From positions 1 to 30,396 of IMG/VR virus record IMGVR_UViG_3300022200_000455: a stretch of 30,396 nt of DNA; one strand, written 5' to 3'. The stretch is from a virus. The number at the start of each line of letters is the position of its first letter. Positions within the stretch are counted from its first letter, which is position 1. Below are positions 8,017 through 27,437 of the stretch, one piece after another. The position numbers and the translations under genes were made by a program. The notes beneath the pieces are model-generated. The model searched no databases. It was not told where the DNA came from and was given only the letters and a program-made list of their open reading frames with translations.

Positions 8017-9573
8017 ATGCAAGAAACAGCCCAAGGTCTATACCACTCCTTAGAGAACCAACGGTGGTCTTTCTTGGATAGAGGTCGTACCTCATCTGAG
8101 TTGACTATACCTTACATAATGCCACCTGATGGACACAACTACGCTACTAAGTATTACACACCTTATCAAGGAGTAGGAGCTAGAGGAGTTAACAACTTAG
8201 CATCTAAGTTATTGTTAGCACTGTTACCACCTAACGCTCCGTTCTTCCGTCTTGTTATAGATAGGTATGAATTAGATAAAGCAAAGCAGGAGTTAGGACC
8301 AGAGGGAGGAGAGCAATTACGATCTGACTTAGAGAAAGCGTTAGCAGATGTAGAACGAAGTGTATCTCAAGAAGTAGAAGTTGAAGCATTTCGAGTAGGA
8401 GTGTTTGAAGCGTTAAAGAATTTATTAGTGACAGGTAATACTTTGTTATACTTACCAGATGACGGTGGGATGAGAGTATTCAGACTGGATCGTTACTGTG
8501 TTAAGAGAGACCCAATGGGTAATGTAACACACATAGCTATCAAAGAAACTGTTGCTCCAATGATGTTACCTGAGTCTGTAAGAGAGGAAGTATATCGTCA
8601 AGAGAAAGAGAATAGCTGTGACTTGTACACCTCTGTAGTTAGAGAAGGTAATGAATATGTAGTACAACAAGATGTTAAAGGAATTGTTATTGAAGAGTCA
8701 AAGGGTAGGTATCCTATCGAGAAGACTCCATTCCTACCTCTTCGTTATACAAGAATAGATGGTGAAGACTACGGACGAGGATTTGTTGAGGAGTACATTG
8801 GTGATCTTAAATCTTTAGAGTCGTTAACAAAAGCGATAGTCGAAGGCAGTGCAGCAGCAGCTAAGGTATTGTTCATGGTTAATCCTAACGGTACAACCAG
8901 GGCTAAGACTTTATCTGAATCTCCTAACGGTGCAATTGTACAAGGTAGTGATGGAGATGTATCTGTTTTACAACTTAACAAGTTCAATGACTTCCGTACT
9001 GCACAAGGAGTAATGAATGGGATTAGTGATAGACTATCTCAAGCTTTTCTACTTAACAGTGGTGTGGTCAGAGATGCAGAACGAGTAACAGCAGAGGAGA
9101 TAAGAATGTTATCTCAAGAGTTGGAAGCTGCACTTGGTGGTCTGTATTCTTTATTGTCACAAGAGTTTCAAATGCCTGTCGTTACTAGGTTAATGGCAAG
9201 GATGAGTAAAGAAGGAAGACTTCCTAAGTTACCTAAAGACATTGTTAAACCTACTATTGTTACTGGTGTTGAAGCACTAGGACGAGGTAATGATTTACAA
9301 AAGCTCGATCTGTTTCTTGCAGGAGCTAATCAAATCGTTGGTCCACAAGCAGTTGCACAATATGTTAATGTATCTGACTACTTCAAAAGAAGAGCCACAG
9401 CGTTAGGTATCGAGACTGAAGGACTGATTAAATCAGAAGAAGAAATTCAACAAGCTATGCAGCAAGCCCAACAACAAGAGATGATGATGAAGTTGGGTGG
9501 ACCTGCTGTAGCACCTGCTATCAATGCTGCACAAGAGCAGTACATGGCATCACAACAACCACAAGAAGAGTAA
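8017..9573 (+). CDS. Head-tail connector / portal protein (T7 gp8-like)
   Basis: Forms the dodecameric portal through which DNA is packaged and ejected, and on which the procapsid starts. At 518 residues it matches T7 gp8 (536). Family features are RTSSELTIPYIMPP, YQGVGARGVNNLASKLLLALLPPNAPFFRL, NTLLYLPDDGGMRVFRLDRYCV, RIDGEDYGRGFVEEYIGDLKSLE and VVRDAERVTAEEIRMLSQELEAALGGLYS. The C-terminus is Gln-rich (QQAMQQAQQQE), as is usual for podovirus portals. It leads directly into scaffold with a 9-base gap. Confidence 0.96.
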   Translation: MQETAQGLYHSLENQRWSFLDRGRTSSELTIPYIMPPDGHNYATKYYTPYQGVGARGVNNLASKLLLALLPPNAPFFRLVIDRYELDKAKQELGPEGGEQLRSDLEKALADVERSVSQEVEVEAFRVGVFEALKNLLVTGNTLLYLPDDGGMRVFRLDRYCVKRDPMGNVTHIAIKETVAPMMLPESVREEVYRQEKENSCDLYTSVVREGNEYVVQQDVKGIVIEESKGRYPIEKTPFLPLRYTRIDGEDYGRGFVEEYIGDLKSLESLTKAIVEGSAAAAKVLFMVNPNGTTRAKTLSESPNGAIVQGSDGDVSVLQLNKFNDFRTAQGVMNGISDRLSQAFLLNSGVVRDAERVTAEEIRMLSQELEAALGGLYSLLSQEFQMPVVTRLMARMSKEGRLPKLPKDIVKPTIVTGVEALGRGNDLQKLDLFLAGANQIVGPQAVAQYVNVSDYFKRRATALGIETEGLIKSEEEIQQAMQQAQQQEMMMKLGGPAVAPAINAAQEQYMASQQPQEE

Positions 9574-9582
9574 AAGAGAGAT

Positions 9583-10359
9583 ATGGCTGAATTACACCGA
9601 GTAGAGATAAATGAGAAAGCACCACAGGAGATTGACCCTGAGACAGAAGAATCTGTTGAAGCAGTACCTGAAGAACAAACGCAAGAGGATAGACCTGAAT
9701 GGTTACCTGAAAAGTTCAAGAGTCCTGAAGACATGGCTAATGCCTATAGTGAACTTGAAAAGAAAATGGGAGCAGGGGCTAACGAAGATCAACAAGAAGA
9801 AGAAGGAGAAACAACCAATGAAGAAGAACAACCAGATGACAGCACTAAGGAAGATACGAATACTAATGATGTTATTGTGGAAGCTAGTAAAGAGTTCTTT
9901 GAGAATGACGGTGTTATATCTGAAGAGACCTATAAGAATCTTGCTGAGATTGGGTTACCGAAGGAGTTAGTAGATAGCTACGCTGCTGGTCAACAAGCAC
10001 TACAACAAAGTGAAGAAGGTAGTATAAAATCTGTTACTGAAGGTAATTGGGATCAAATGGCAGAGTGGGCTGCTAACAATCTATCACCTGAAGAAGTAAA
10101 TACTTTTGATGAAATCGTACAGAACGGTACAGTTGAACAAGCTAAATTAGCTACCAAAGGATTATACGCACAATTTAAAGCAGAGAATGGAGTTAGTCCT
10201 AAGCTAGTACAAGGTGCTGTAAGTGGTTCATCTACAATGCCTTTTAAATCTAACCAAGAACTTGCACGAGCAATGTCTGATCCTAGATACAAGAGTGGTG
10301 ACAAAAGTTATCACGAAGAGATTGACAGACGCATAGCAGCAAGTCACAATTACCTATAA
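9583..10359 (+). CDS. Capsid assembly scaffolding protein (T7 gp9-like)
   Basis: Internal scaffold for procapsid assembly, placed between portal and capsid as in T7. The protein has 258 residues and is strongly acidic, with long Glu/Gln/Asp runs at residues 15-95 and the recognisable RPEWLPEKFKSPEDMANAYSELEKKMG segment. The C-terminal part has NQELARAMSDPRYKSGDKSYHEEIDRR, which is typical of gp9-like capsid-binding ends. A GAGAGAT purine stretch just before the ATG can serve as ribosome binding site. Confidence 0.9.
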   Translation: MAELHRVEINEKAPQEIDPETEESVEAVPEEQTQEDRPEWLPEKFKSPEDMANAYSELEKKMGAGANEDQQEEEGETTNEEEQPDDSTKEDTNTNDVIVEASKEFFENDGVISEETYKNLAEIGLPKELVDSYAAGQQALQQSEEGSIKSVTEGNWDQMAEWAANNLSPEEVNTFDEIVQNGTVEQAKLATKGLYAQFKAENGVSPKLVQGAVSGSSTMPFKSNQELARAMSDPRYKSGDKSYHEEIDRRIAASHNYL

Positions 10360-10384: not shown

Positions 10385-10801
10385 ATGAAGCCTTGGACTC
10401 TATCTTTTTTCTTGCCAGTGTTGGTTCTGGTTCTTTTAGGTGGATGTTCCAAGGCTTCTTTTTATCCGTTAGCAGGGAGTGTAGGTGGAGCTACTGTTGG
10501 TAGCCTTGGTGGTCCTGGTGCTGCTGCTGGTGGTGCTGCCCTCGGATGGGGAGTAGGAGAAGGAGCTAAGTTGATGGAGGAGAACAAAGGATTAGCTAGT
10601 AAAGTAAAAGCTTTATCTGAAGGAGATGTACAAAAACTTGTACAACAACAACTCAACGAAGAGATGGATAATGGATTCTTTGATTCTATGTTGGATGAGA
10701 TATATGGGTTCTTGAAACTCTGTCTTATCGGTGTTATTCTTTGGAATGTAGTACCGTTGATCTACACACGCTATGTTCACAATAAAGCACAAAACAAATG
10801 A
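10385..10801 (+). CDS. Lipoprotein with C-terminal membrane segment (u-spanin-like layout)
   Basis: A 138-residue protein. The N-terminus is a lipoprotein signal: Lys2, a hydrophobic stretch (FFLPVLVLVLLGG) and lipobox LGGC with Cys21. Residues 31-60 are a Gly/Ala zipper (GSVGGATVGSLGGPGAAAGG). A soluble helical part follows, then a C-terminal hydrophobic helix (FLKLCLIGVILWNVVPLIY) and a basic tail RYVHNKAQNK. Outer-membrane lipid plus inner-membrane helix with basic cytoplasmic tail is the layout of unimolecular spanins (such as phage T1 gp11, 134 residues), which fuse the two membranes in the last step of lysis. The Gly zipper also allows a superinfection-exclusion lipoprotein. It sits unusually between scaffold and capsid, and is coupled to the next short gene. 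Confidence 0.75.
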   Translation: MKPWTLSFFLPVLVLVLLGGCSKASFYPLAGSVGGATVGSLGGPGAAAGGAALGWGVGEGAKLMEENKGLASKVKALSEGDVQKLVQQQLNEEMDNGFFDSMLDEIYGFLKLCLIGVILWNVVPLIYTRYVHNKAQNK

Positions 10802-10902
10802 ATAAATTAATAAAATTATATAACTCACTTACAAAGAAGGAGAAAGCTATTGTCTTGACTGTTCTTTGTTTAGGTGGAATTATTATACTAAATACACTTT
10901 AA
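10798..10902 (+). CDS. 34-residue membrane peptide
   Basis: Starts at an ATGA overlap with the stop of the lipoprotein gene, so it is translationally coupled. The peptide has a basic N-terminus (MNKLIKLYNSLTKKEK) and one hydrophobic helix (AIVLTVLCLGGIIIL) reaching the C-terminus. This predicts an N-in inner-membrane peptide. Size and topology would fit a tiny holin-like, antiholin or exclusion protein working with the lipoprotein, but function is inferred from pairing alone. Confidence 0.6.
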   Translation: MNKLIKLYNSLTKKEKAIVLTVLCLGGIIILNTL

Positions 10903-10923: not shown

Positions 10924-11035
10924 GTCAAGACCCACTGCGGTGGACAATCTCGAACGAAGGTTACAACGAAAGTCGCAAAACAAATACATAAACATTAATA
11001 ACAAAATACATAAGGAGATAATATATCATGGCTAA
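10922..11035 (+). CDS. Possible 37-residue leader peptide
   Basis: An ATG at 10922 opens a frame starting MSRPTAVDNLERRLQRKSQ that ends at 11035, just inside the capsid gene in another frame. The N-terminal half looks like real protein and is basic. It has no clear Shine-Dalgarno site and the second half is Asn/Ile/Lys low complexity. It might be a leader that couples translation to the capsid start, or chance. Confidence 0.3.
   Translation: MSRPTAVDNLERRLQRKSQNKYININNKIHKEIIYHG
11012..11017 (+). promoter_or_regulatory. Strong Shine-Dalgarno site of the capsid gene
   Basis: AAGGAG lies 10 bases before the ATG at 11028. This is the best ribosome binding site in the window; most genes here start without one. 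It fits the need for very high capsid expression. Confidence 0.8.
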
Positions 11036-12089
11036 TGGAGATACATCCCCCTCACGTGTAGGACAAGTTAATAGTGCTGGTGACGTAGATGCTTTGTTTC
11101 TTAAAAAGTTCAGCGGAGAAATCTTGCAGACCTTTGAGGAGTCCAACATCTTTAAACCACTACATACTGTTCGCACAATCGAAAACGGTAAATCAGCTCA
11201 GTTCCCTGTAACAGGCGTAGCTTCTGCTGACTATCACACACCTGGCGAAAACATCGCTGACGGTGGAAACTCATACTTGAGCGACATCAAGAAAGCAGAG
11301 AAAGTAATTACAATCGATAAGATGTTACTTGCTTCTACCTTCTTGGCTAACATCGACGACGTAAAGAATCACTACGACATCCGCAGCGTTTACGCTAACG
11401 AGTTGGGTAAAGCTCTTGCAGTTCGTTTTGATACTGCTATTGCTAAAGTATTCATCGCTTCTGCTCGTTCAGCTGCTGCTGTTACTGGCGGTAAAGTCGG
11501 AGGAATCCTCGATGTTTCTGCTAACGCAATGGGAGACGGAGCTGATTCAACTGATGACGCTGACAACACTGATCCAACAGGAGCAGAACTTGTTGCTGCT
11601 TTATTCACTGCTGCTCAGAAGCTAGACGAAAACGACGTTCCTAGTGATGGTCGTTTCTGCGTACTTCGCCCTCAAGAGTATTACAAGTTAATCACTGGCG
11701 GTGCTGGTGCGTTGGCTATCTCTACTTCAGCTGTCAATAAAGACGTTGGAGGAGTAGGAAGTATTGCTTCAGGATCAATTCCTCAAGTTGCAGGTATCAC
11801 GATCTACAAAAGTAATCACATCCCTTCGACTGATTTATCAGCTGTTACTACTGGAGACGGTGCTGCAAGCAATGATGTCTTTGGTTCAGGTGGAGCAGGT
11901 TATAATGGTAACTTCACCAATACTCTTGGTATCGTTGCTCACTCTGCTGCTGTCGGAACAGTTAAGCTTCTTGATCTTGCTACTGAAAGCGAGTATCAAA
12001 TCGAGCGTCAAGGAACACTTTTTGTTGCTAAGTATGCTATGGGTCACGGAGTTCTCCGTCCTGAGTGTGCTATCGAGTTACAGAAATAA
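11028..12089 (+). CDS. Major capsid protein (T7 gp10-like)
   Basis: Main shell protein of the icosahedral head, HK97 fold. It has 353 residues, as T7 gp10A. Family-typical sequence: ALFLKKFSGEILQTFEESNIF, TVRTIENGKSAQFPVTG, YHTPGENI, KVITIDKMLLASTFLANIDD, NELGKALAVRFDTAIAK, DGRFCVLRPQEYYKLI and KYAMGHGVLRPECAIELQK at the end. Codon choice is visibly biased to C-ending Asn, Asp, Phe, Ile and to CGT Arg, unlike neighbours, which fits high expression. A hairpin terminator follows. No gp10B-type frameshift extension is evident. Confidence 0.97.
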   Translation: MANGDTSPSRVGQVNSAGDVDALFLKKFSGEILQTFEESNIFKPLHTVRTIENGKSAQFPVTGVASADYHTPGENIADGGNSYLSDIKKAEKVITIDKMLLASTFLANIDDVKNHYDIRSVYANELGKALAVRFDTAIAKVFIASARSAAAVTGGKVGGILDVSANAMGDGADSTDDADNTDPTGAELVAALFTAAQKLDENDVPSDGRFCVLRPQEYYKLITGGAGALAISTSAVNKDVGGVGSIASGSIPQVAGITIYKSNHIPSTDLSAVTTGDGAASNDVFGSGGAGYNGNFTNTLGIVAHSAAVGTVKLLDLATESEYQIERQGTLFVAKYAMGHGVLRPECAIELQK

Positions 12090-24870: not shown

Positions 24871-26496
24871 ATGGCTAATACATACGTAGACTACACAGTT
24901 GGAGCAGGTCAAACAGACTTTGCATTTTCTTTTCCTTATCTTGATGACACTCATGTAGTTGTACAGTTAGACGATTCAACAGGCAGTTCTCCAGGAGGTA
25001 AGTTTTATACTGTCTCTACAGGAGATTACACTATTATAACATCTCCTTCTGCTCTTATCAGATTTACTACTGCTCCTGAGACTGGTGCTAGGATAAGAAT
25101 TAAAAGAGACAGTGCATCTAATACTGCTCTTGTAGACTTTGAGAACGGTAGTGTACTTACTGAAGTAGAACTAGACCGTGCTTACTTACACAACTTATAT
25201 CTGAACGAAGAGATAGAAGAAGGTAGTGGTAAGAACACAATGACCAAGAATGCTGATGGTAACTATGACGGTGATAAAGCAAGAATAGTAGATGTTGCTG
25301 ATCCTGTTGATCCTCAAGATGCTGTAACTAAGAACTACGCAGATACTACTTTTGTTGATGTTGCTGGTGATACGATGACGGGTAACTTGGACATGGGAGC
25401 TAATAAAGTCACTTCCTCTGCTGTTCCTAGTACAGGTAATGATCTTACTAACAAGACTTATGTAGACGGACAAGACGCACTACAAGTTACTAAGAGTGGC
25501 GATTCAATGAGCGGAGCTTTAACATTACCTAACTCTGACCCCACTGACGGAAACCACGCTACTAGAAAGACTTATGTAGACGCTCAGATAGCTGCTACTT
25601 TAGCTACAGGTACAGCAGGTGGTCCTATAGATACAGTTAACATTGCTGATGATGCTATAACTGCTGATAAGCTTGCTGACACCACTGTTACTCCAGGGTC
25701 TTATACGAACACTAATTTAACAGTAGATCAACAAGGACGAATCACAGCTGCTGCTAGTGGGTCAGGTGGAGCAGGTACTACTAATCTTTCAACCACAGCT
25801 AACGGTACTTCTTTAATAGTTGCTAGTGACACAGGTACTGACGCTTCTATCCCTGCTGCTACTACAAGTGCTTGGGGAGCGATGACAGATGAAGATAAGA
25901 CTAAGCTTGATGGTATTGCTGCTGGTGCTGAAGTAAACCCAACAAATACAGACGGACTTACACAAGGTTCTACTAATCTTTACAACCAAACACATACAGG
26001 TGATGTTACAGGTTCTACTGCTCTGACGATAGCTGATAACGCTGTAACACCTGCTAAGATAAGTAGCACCGACACTTTATTAAATGTCAATGATACTCAC
26101 CAAACTATAGGACTTGGTATTTTAGCTAATGCTTTGAGTAGTAGTCCTAAAGTAAACATGGATGGTGGAGTTCGTGTTGGAAATCAAGCACCTTCTGTAG
26201 CAGGAGAGTTAGAGGTTACAGGTAATGGAAGTGCAAACATCTTAGTAGTCGAGAACACTTCTACCACGGCAACGGATCAATCAATCATTACCTGTAGAGG
26301 TCCACAAGTCACTCTTCAGTTAAAAGATACAGTAGCACCTGCTGATAGTGGTATTTACAATATAACAGTCGATGGTGGTTATCTTCAAATAAATTTAATA
26401 AGTGATGATGGTTTAACTACAACAGGTTTATTAAGGTTAAGACCTAACGGCAATCTTTCTATAGCTGGTACACTCTCTCAAAATGGATTAACATAA
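24871..26496 (+). CDS. Tail fibre protein (T7 gp17-like N-terminus)
   Basis: Receptor-binding fibre. Residues 1-120 are the T7 fibre N-terminal domain that binds the tail: YVDYTVGAGQTDFAFSFPYLD, VVVQLDD, RIKRDSASNTALVDFENGSVLTEVELDRAYLHNLYLNEE. Shaft elements follow: DTMTGNLDMGANKV, KTYVDGQDAL, DSMSGALTLPNSDPTDGNHATRKTYVDAQI, then GDVTGSTALTIADNAVTPAKI. The C-terminal part is beta-rich and has no recognised chaperone. 541 residues, against 553 in T7. Preceded by a 46-base A/T-rich gap without Shine-Dalgarno site. Confidence 0.94.
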   Translation: MANTYVDYTVGAGQTDFAFSFPYLDDTHVVVQLDDSTGSSPGGKFYTVSTGDYTIITSPSALIRFTTAPETGARIRIKRDSASNTALVDFENGSVLTEVELDRAYLHNLYLNEEIEEGSGKNTMTKNADGNYDGDKARIVDVADPVDPQDAVTKNYADTTFVDVAGDTMTGNLDMGANKVTSSAVPSTGNDLTNKTYVDGQDALQVTKSGDSMSGALTLPNSDPTDGNHATRKTYVDAQIAATLATGTAGGPIDTVNIADDAITADKLADTTVTPGSYTNTNLTVDQQGRITAAASGSGGAGTTNLSTTANGTSLIVASDTGTDASIPAATTSAWGAMTDEDKTKLDGIAAGAEVNPTNTDGLTQGSTNLYNQTHTGDVTGSTALTIADNAVTPAKISSTDTLLNVNDTHQTIGLGILANALSSSPKVNMDGGVRVGNQAPSVAGELEVTGNGSANILVVENTSTTATDQSIITCRGPQVTLQLKDTVAPADSGIYNITVDGGYLQINLISDDGLTTTGLLRLRPNGNLSIAGTLSQNGLT

Positions 26497-26497
26497 G

Positions 26498-26749
26498 ATG
26501 CCAGAAACAATATCACACTTTCTCGACACTGCTCTAGCTGTTATACTTGGAGTCATTGGTTGGATGATTAAAAAGCTTACAGATCGTTTAGAAAAAGATG
26601 AAGAGCGTCTAACTAAGATAGAAGTAGAACTAGCTACCCAAAGAGAACGAGACACTGCTGTGGAGAATAGAATGAGTGGTCTTGAAACTACGGTTAAAGA
26701 GATTAACGGTAAACTAGATAGAATGATGGAGATGTTAATGAAGAAATGA
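26498..26749 (+). CDS. Small membrane protein in T7 holin position
   Basis: An 83-residue protein with one hydrophobic helix (FLDTALAVILGVIGWMI, residues 7-24) followed by basic KKLTDR and then a charged coiled coil to the end. The basic residues after the helix predict N-out, C-in. T7 gene 17.5, the holin, is in this place after the fibre, so holin is the first guess. The cytoplasmic coiled coil makes an i-spanin unlikely. It shares an ATGA with the next gene. Confidence 0.7.
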   Translation: MPETISHFLDTALAVILGVIGWMIKKLTDRLEKDEERLTKIEVELATQRERDTAVENRMSGLETTVKEINGKLDRMMEMLMKK

Positions 26750-27128: not shown

Positions 27129-27437
27129 ATGAAAGAGATAAACGCAAACGCATCCGCTAAAGTACAACTCGCTTTTGCTGCGAAGGTAATTGCCTTGGTC
27201 GGGACGTGTGTTTGGGGCTATTCTGTAATTGTCAATCGACTAAATACTATTGAAATGGATATAGCTAGGATTCAACATGAGCTTTCTTTAAATTCGGAAT
27301 TCAGGATAAAATGGCCGCGTGGCGAGATCGGAGCTTTACCTGCTGACGCTACCCAAGATATGAACATTGAACACCTAAAGACTAGGGTGAATAAACTAGA
27401 CGAGCACGTAGACAAGTTGCGTTACGGTGTTGAGTAG
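27129..27437 (+). CDS. Membrane-anchored coiled-coil protein, possible spanin or holin
   Basis: A 102-residue protein with one membrane helix at residues 14-35 (AFAAKVIALVGTCVWGYSVIV), preceded by Lys2, Lys11 and followed by a soluble part with WPRGEIGALPADATQDM and a coiled coil (LKTRVNKLDEHVDKL). Basic N-terminus predicts N-in and a periplasmic C-terminus, as in Rz-type i-spanins. The WPRGE(I/L)GALPAD segment is shared by many marine phage proteins of unknown role. In T7 the Rz-like gene 18.5 is in the same region. No nested Rz1-like lipoprotein frame was noticed. Confidence 0.65.
   Translation: MKEINANASAKVQLAFAAKVIALVGTCVWGYSVIVNRLNTIEMDIARIQHELSLNSEFRIKWPRGEIGALPADATQDMNIEHLKTRVNKLDEHVDKLRYGVE

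Follow-up and report, generated by a model that had tools for sequence, protein, structure and literature searches.

The gene pair and its borders

The window considered here, that is, the whole stretch of DNA that was analysed, is a 30.4-kb fragment (30,396 nucleotides) of a T7-like phage (Autographiviridae). Two genes on the plus strand lie in the gap between its scaffold and major capsid genes. The first one (10385..10801) encodes a u-spanin-like lipoprotein of 138 residues, and its stop codon overlaps, in the sequence ATGA, the start of the second one (10798..10902), which encodes a membrane protein of 34 residues. Both reading frames and their coupling are confirmed as the preliminary description of this locus had given them. 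The gap is bordered on the left by the scaffold gene (9583..10359, plus strand; PHROG 1052, E 5e-52; Pfam PF05396, E 2.4e-11), which is preceded by the portal gene (8017-9573), and on the right by the gene of a Gp10A-type major capsid protein (11028..12089, plus strand; Pfam PF21703, E 1.5e-68), after which come the tail, internal virion protein, fibre and terminase genes. A conserved hairpin, CCCACTGCGGTGGAC (10931..10945, plus strand), lies downstream of the pair and ahead of the capsid gene. The same element stands 5' of the capsid gene of phage S45C18, and it is kept at the equivalent place in many relatives. Repeated phage-promoter motifs were also sought, and none was found.

That both ORFs are real genes is shown by the recurrence of the pair in T7-like (Autographiviridae) phages of IMG/VR, with protein identities of 64–100% and median dN/dS values of 0.17 (lipoprotein) and 0.39 (micro-ORF). 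The lipoprotein family was searched for three times in IMG/VR, and the last search gave 133 matched places. The aligned members are 64–96% identical to the window protein, and exact or nearly exact copies exist too. The micro-ORF follows 220 of the 221 lipoprotein-family ORFs having room downstream, a count that includes the same contigs fetched repeatedly, so that the events are not independent; the distinct sequences behind it are 62 for the lipoprotein and 43 for the micro-ORF. In the sole exception, the gene is interrupted by Ns in the assembly. Given this pairing, the arrangement is no chance ORF pattern. The lipoprotein family was not found in bacterial and archaeal genomes, a tblastn search of 50,697 phage records gave no match to the pair, and comparisons with Pfam, PHROG, NCBIfam, PADLOC and PDB sequences yielded nothing significant.

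Architecture of the lipoprotein

The lipoprotein begins with a signal peptide, residues 1–21 (10385..10447, plus strand), in which MKPWTLSFFLPVLVLVLLGGC is followed by SKAS. Cys21, inside the lipobox LGGC, is the predicted lipidation site. Judged from the sequence, the signal is of the outer-membrane type, with a lipobox and a residue other than Asp at +2, namely Ser. Among 28 aligned relatives the stretch GCSKASFYP at the lipobox, including Cys21, is invariant, and the signal peptide upstream of it is variable.

The next element is a Gly-zipper segment, residues 29–58 (10469..10558, plus strand), with two Gly/Ala-rich stretches flanking GGPG. Its residues G31, G35, A36, G39, G42, G43, P44, A47, A48 and G49, among others, are invariant in the alignment, and its hydropathy is moderate, reaching at most 0.9. 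With a lipobox and then a Gly/Ala zipper with a turn, the protein presumably resembles the Glycine-zipper 2TM lipoproteins (Rick_17kDa_Anti, PF05433). However, the PF05433 profile is not matched, and the C-terminal transmembrane segment is an extra element here. In Pfam, with E values up to 1, only Reticulon appears, at 0.17. A second gene embedded within the lipoprotein gene was considered as well, and was rejected, the synonymous suppression over the Gly-zipper region being only mild (permutation p 0.018).

The ectodomain, residues 22–107, comprises 86 residues and contains no cysteine. Its residues 61–106 are polar and probably helical. The AlphaFold model of the protein is all-helical at low confidence (pLDDT about 50), and is too uncertain for a fold search. 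The 19-residue mean hydropathy peaks at 2.09 over residues 108–126 (10706..10762, plus strand), which qualifies this part as a C-terminal transmembrane segment, and the basic tail YTRYVHNKAQNK comes after it. In one subgroup of the family the tail is longer and strongly basic, and ends in KKSNNNDKSIKKTKKNL.

One way to read this architecture is as an inner-membrane lipoprotein that has both ends in the inner membrane and is, instead of a spanin, an effector of host takeover or stress. The Gly-zipper segment may indeed be membrane-embedded, and the residue at +3 is Lys, which in certain Gram-negative hosts can influence sorting to the outer membrane. The Ser at +2, however, suits outer-membrane sorting by the E. 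coli rule, although the host may differ, and the context of the gap is lysis-type, as discussed below. We regard such an effector as improbable.

The architecture fits the u-spanins better, which are defined by an outer-membrane lipoprotein signal together with a C-terminal transmembrane segment, and of which none of 58 surveyed has a periplasmic cysteine (PMC6139136). In the same work, gp11 of phage T1 was found to complement RzRz1 (PMC6139136). The present protein is similar to gp11 (PHROG 1804) in size (138 vs 133 residues), in the lipobox with Ser at +2, in the Cys-less periplasmic domain, in the C-terminal transmembrane segment and in the short basic cytoplasmic tail. The u-spanin plan noted in the preliminary description is supported by the sequence (outer-membrane-type signal, Cys-less ectodomain, C-terminal transmembrane segment and basic tail), while the corresponding function is a prediction. 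Beyond the lipobox, homology to gp11 is absent. Namely, hhalign gives a probability of 7.5% over 16 columns, and the protein does not match PHROG 1804, whereas gp11 itself scores 9.7e-45, which sets it apart from the gp11 family. Moreover, the ectodomain of gp11 is predicted to be beta-rich, whereas here it carries the Gly-zipper and is probably helical, and the gene is located between scaffold and capsid, with no recognised holin or endolysin neighbours.

The 138-residue protein is therefore best read as a u-spanin-like protein whose ectodomain carries a Gly-zipper and is probably helical, and which has no sequence relationship to T1 gp11. This assignment is based on the plan, the size, the absence of cysteine, the genomic context and the cassette swap described below. 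That the Gly-zipper is atypical of known u-spanins, as was remarked earlier, is borne out by the lack of a match to the gp11 family, PHROG, Pfam and NCBIfam. With the Rz/Rz1 (i-/o-spanin) systems the protein would share the expected function, and in the gap of sister phages a coiled-coil protein with an N-terminal anchor accompanies an embedded lipoprotein ORF; the difference is that both membrane anchors are on one protein here. Spanins comprise many unrelated families, to which the pair would add an apparently unrelated, probably helical Gly-zipper type.

The scaffold–capsid gap in other phages

Lysis genes between scaffold and capsid had been called unexpected, but this turns out not to be the case. 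In the T7-like Rhizobium phage Pasto (MT708545), the gap between the scaffold and major capsid genes holds an annotated endolysin, a class II holin, an i-spanin and an o-spanin, and no sequence related to these is found here. In Pseudomonas phage LUZ100, the gap protein gp38 (L170:2229-2420; OP329100 20426-20617) matches the Rz-like spanin family phrog_1275 with an E value of 1.6e-12, despite the report that no spanin genes were found in this phage (PMC10134795). The sister phages discussed in the next section have another lysis-type cassette at the same place.

Further phages show a range of contents. Those of the S45C18 type encode in the gap a 62-residue membrane protein (PHROG 9685) together with an N-anchored protein, and also have there a lipoprotein ORF that is out of frame and unannotated. 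In S45C18 itself (AP013544) the latter lies inside the BAQ94255 gene (L072:2906-3109), and it is conserved in relatives. Synonymous suppression over this ORF was examined, and the divergence is too small to judge it. The deep-sea phage KM23C739 (KT997847) has a 64-residue lipoprotein and a 36-residue transmembrane peptide there, in addition to one membrane protein and one N-anchored protein. The genes of the lipoprotein and the peptide overlap (L169:4519-4823), and their likeness to the present pair is one of plan. The gap of CRP-361 is empty, and those of P-SCSP2 and RHEph01/TRX32 contain other small proteins. In some distant relatives (L292:1948-2442 and its relatives) there is a secreted or lipobox-bearing gap protein of 164–201 residues with a conserved WEV...GxYQIH motif. 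A lysozyme identity of this protein (L292, L297 and others) was suggested by the motif when inspected by eye, and was dropped when neither the profile search nor Foldseek supported it. For marine T7-like phages, the scaffold–capsid gap is a place where annotators could seek missing lysis genes.

Exchange of cassettes among close relatives

For the close relatives, 80 phages with capsids of 85–99% identity were fetched, 67 of which have a complete gap. The pair is present in 50 of these and absent from 17. All 17 encode instead an unrelated multi-transmembrane protein of 154 or 155 residues, which in 16 of them is preceded by an N-anchored coiled-coil protein of 107–124 residues that is related to the product of window positions 27129-27437. 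Family searches with the 155-residue protein gave no assigned family.

The 155-residue gene was found to have a stretch, codons 58–82, with a pS of 0.108 compared to 0.372 overall, and none of 2000 permutations was as low (p<0.001). In the other frame, these codons encode a lipoprotein signal ending in LLLSGC. The analysis supports the embedded lipoprotein ORF, which would be an o-spanin-like gene inside another gene that is atypical for an i-spanin. The embedded lipoprotein has weak matches to PHROG spanins, the best being 0.0025. The out-of-frame ORF is seen within the 155-residue gene at L363:2636-3100 and at 14 further loci.

The pair and the 155-residue protein were in no case found together in eight large contigs or genomes. 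Since the two cassettes are never seen together, the situation looks like a module swap. Taken with the counts from the 67 relatives and the embedded ORF, this suggests that a cassette of a multi-transmembrane protein and a spanin-like lipoprotein is exchanged for one of a u-spanin-like protein and a micro-transmembrane protein. Nearly identical phages that carry either the pair or the unrelated lysis-type cassette constitute a natural replacement experiment on the minimal needs for spanin and holin.

The swap also bears on two other explanations. The first is that the pair is a superinfection-exclusion moron, with both products residing in the envelope and preventing related phages from entering. 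Such a role is known for small phage lipoproteins, Cor for example, T1 carries one, and exclusion genes can, like this locus, be swapped between close relatives. Here, however, the pair substitutes for a lysis-type cassette and not for an empty site, and it is located inside the late structural block and is universal in its subclade. The lipoprotein has, in addition, a C-terminal transmembrane segment, a feature not known from the outer-membrane exclusion lipoproteins; PADLOC and PHROG gave no match to an exclusion or defence family. Exclusion is thus an unlikely role. The preliminary description had left the choice between a new lysis pair and an exclusion moron; because relatives use the scaffold–capsid gap for lysis-type genes, the lysis pair is now favoured.

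The second is a virion or assembly protein, such as a minor capsid protein or a scaffold partner, encoded beside its partners. The position between the scaffold and capsid genes would agree with this, but not the invariant lipobox and the C-terminal transmembrane segment, nor the fact that the gene is missing in sister phages with 90–96% identical capsids. We find this option very hard to reconcile with the data.

The micro-protein and the proposed lysis module

The 34-residue peptide has a Lys-rich N-terminus, followed by a single C-terminal hydrophobic segment, residues 16–34 (hydropathy 2.11). In some family members, the start of the micro-ORF is well upstream, inside the lipoprotein gene. 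Known holin families in PHROG, Pfam and NCBIfam are not matched by the peptide, and it is by its context that it may be a small holin-type partner of the lipoprotein.

On balance, the two genes probably form a late lysis module, consisting of a u-spanin-like protein and a small membrane partner. In the mechanism envisaged, Cys21 would be lipidated and hold the 138-residue protein in the outer membrane, while the ectodomain, mainly helical and with the Gly-zipper segment, would cross the periplasm, and the C-terminal helix would anchor the protein in the inner membrane. The co-translated 34-residue peptide would enter the inner membrane, most likely as a small holin-type partner. By the positive-inside rule, the basic ends of both proteins, that is, the tail of the lipoprotein and the N-terminus of the peptide, should be cytoplasmic. 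Once the cell wall is weakened, the lipoprotein would draw the two membranes towards each other and cause their fusion or disruption.

It is against this proposal that spanin and holin families match neither protein of the pair, and that no recognised endolysin or holin adjoins the lipoprotein. Scanning the larger unassigned proteins in the phage genomes of the group against known families revealed no recognised endolysin, nor did tblastn with the amidases and lysozymes of relatives or an inspection of accessory ORFs in another seven contigs or genomes; an unfamiliar endolysin may nevertheless be present. Two genomes, G001 (L080 and L081) and G003 (L082 and L083), close on themselves at about 37.2–37.8 kb and have no recognisable endolysin. 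In G003, a predicted lipoprotein of 94 residues (MKWLILSLLFAGC) is encoded downstream of the small terminase gene (26085-26369, in L083), with no match in G001. A further option is that the pair is a complete minimal lysis module, in which the Gly-zipper u-spanin and the 34-residue single-transmembrane peptide replace a holin and a two-component spanin, and the peptide attacks the inner membrane, and perhaps the cell wall, unaided. To us this appears rather unlikely.

Finally, the lipoprotein could be a u-spanin while the peptide is an antiholin, a regulator or a spanin stabiliser, the holin being instead a conserved N-anchored protein of 83 residues (26498-26749). The latter is present with both cassette types and, as in LUZ100, at the T7-like holin position, and the micro-ORF invariably overlaps and accompanies the lipoprotein gene, which would be consistent with such an auxiliary role. 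The PHROG matches of the 83-residue protein include one holin family and one spanin family, but they are weak and probably coiled-coil-driven. This division of roles is a possibility to be taken seriously, yet one that we would bet against. The window also encodes, at 27129-27437, an N-anchored coiled-coil protein of 102 residues (PHROG 20984), which adjoins the small terminase here and in another genome, G005. It is missing from some relatives, and homologs are located in the scaffold–capsid gap of others.
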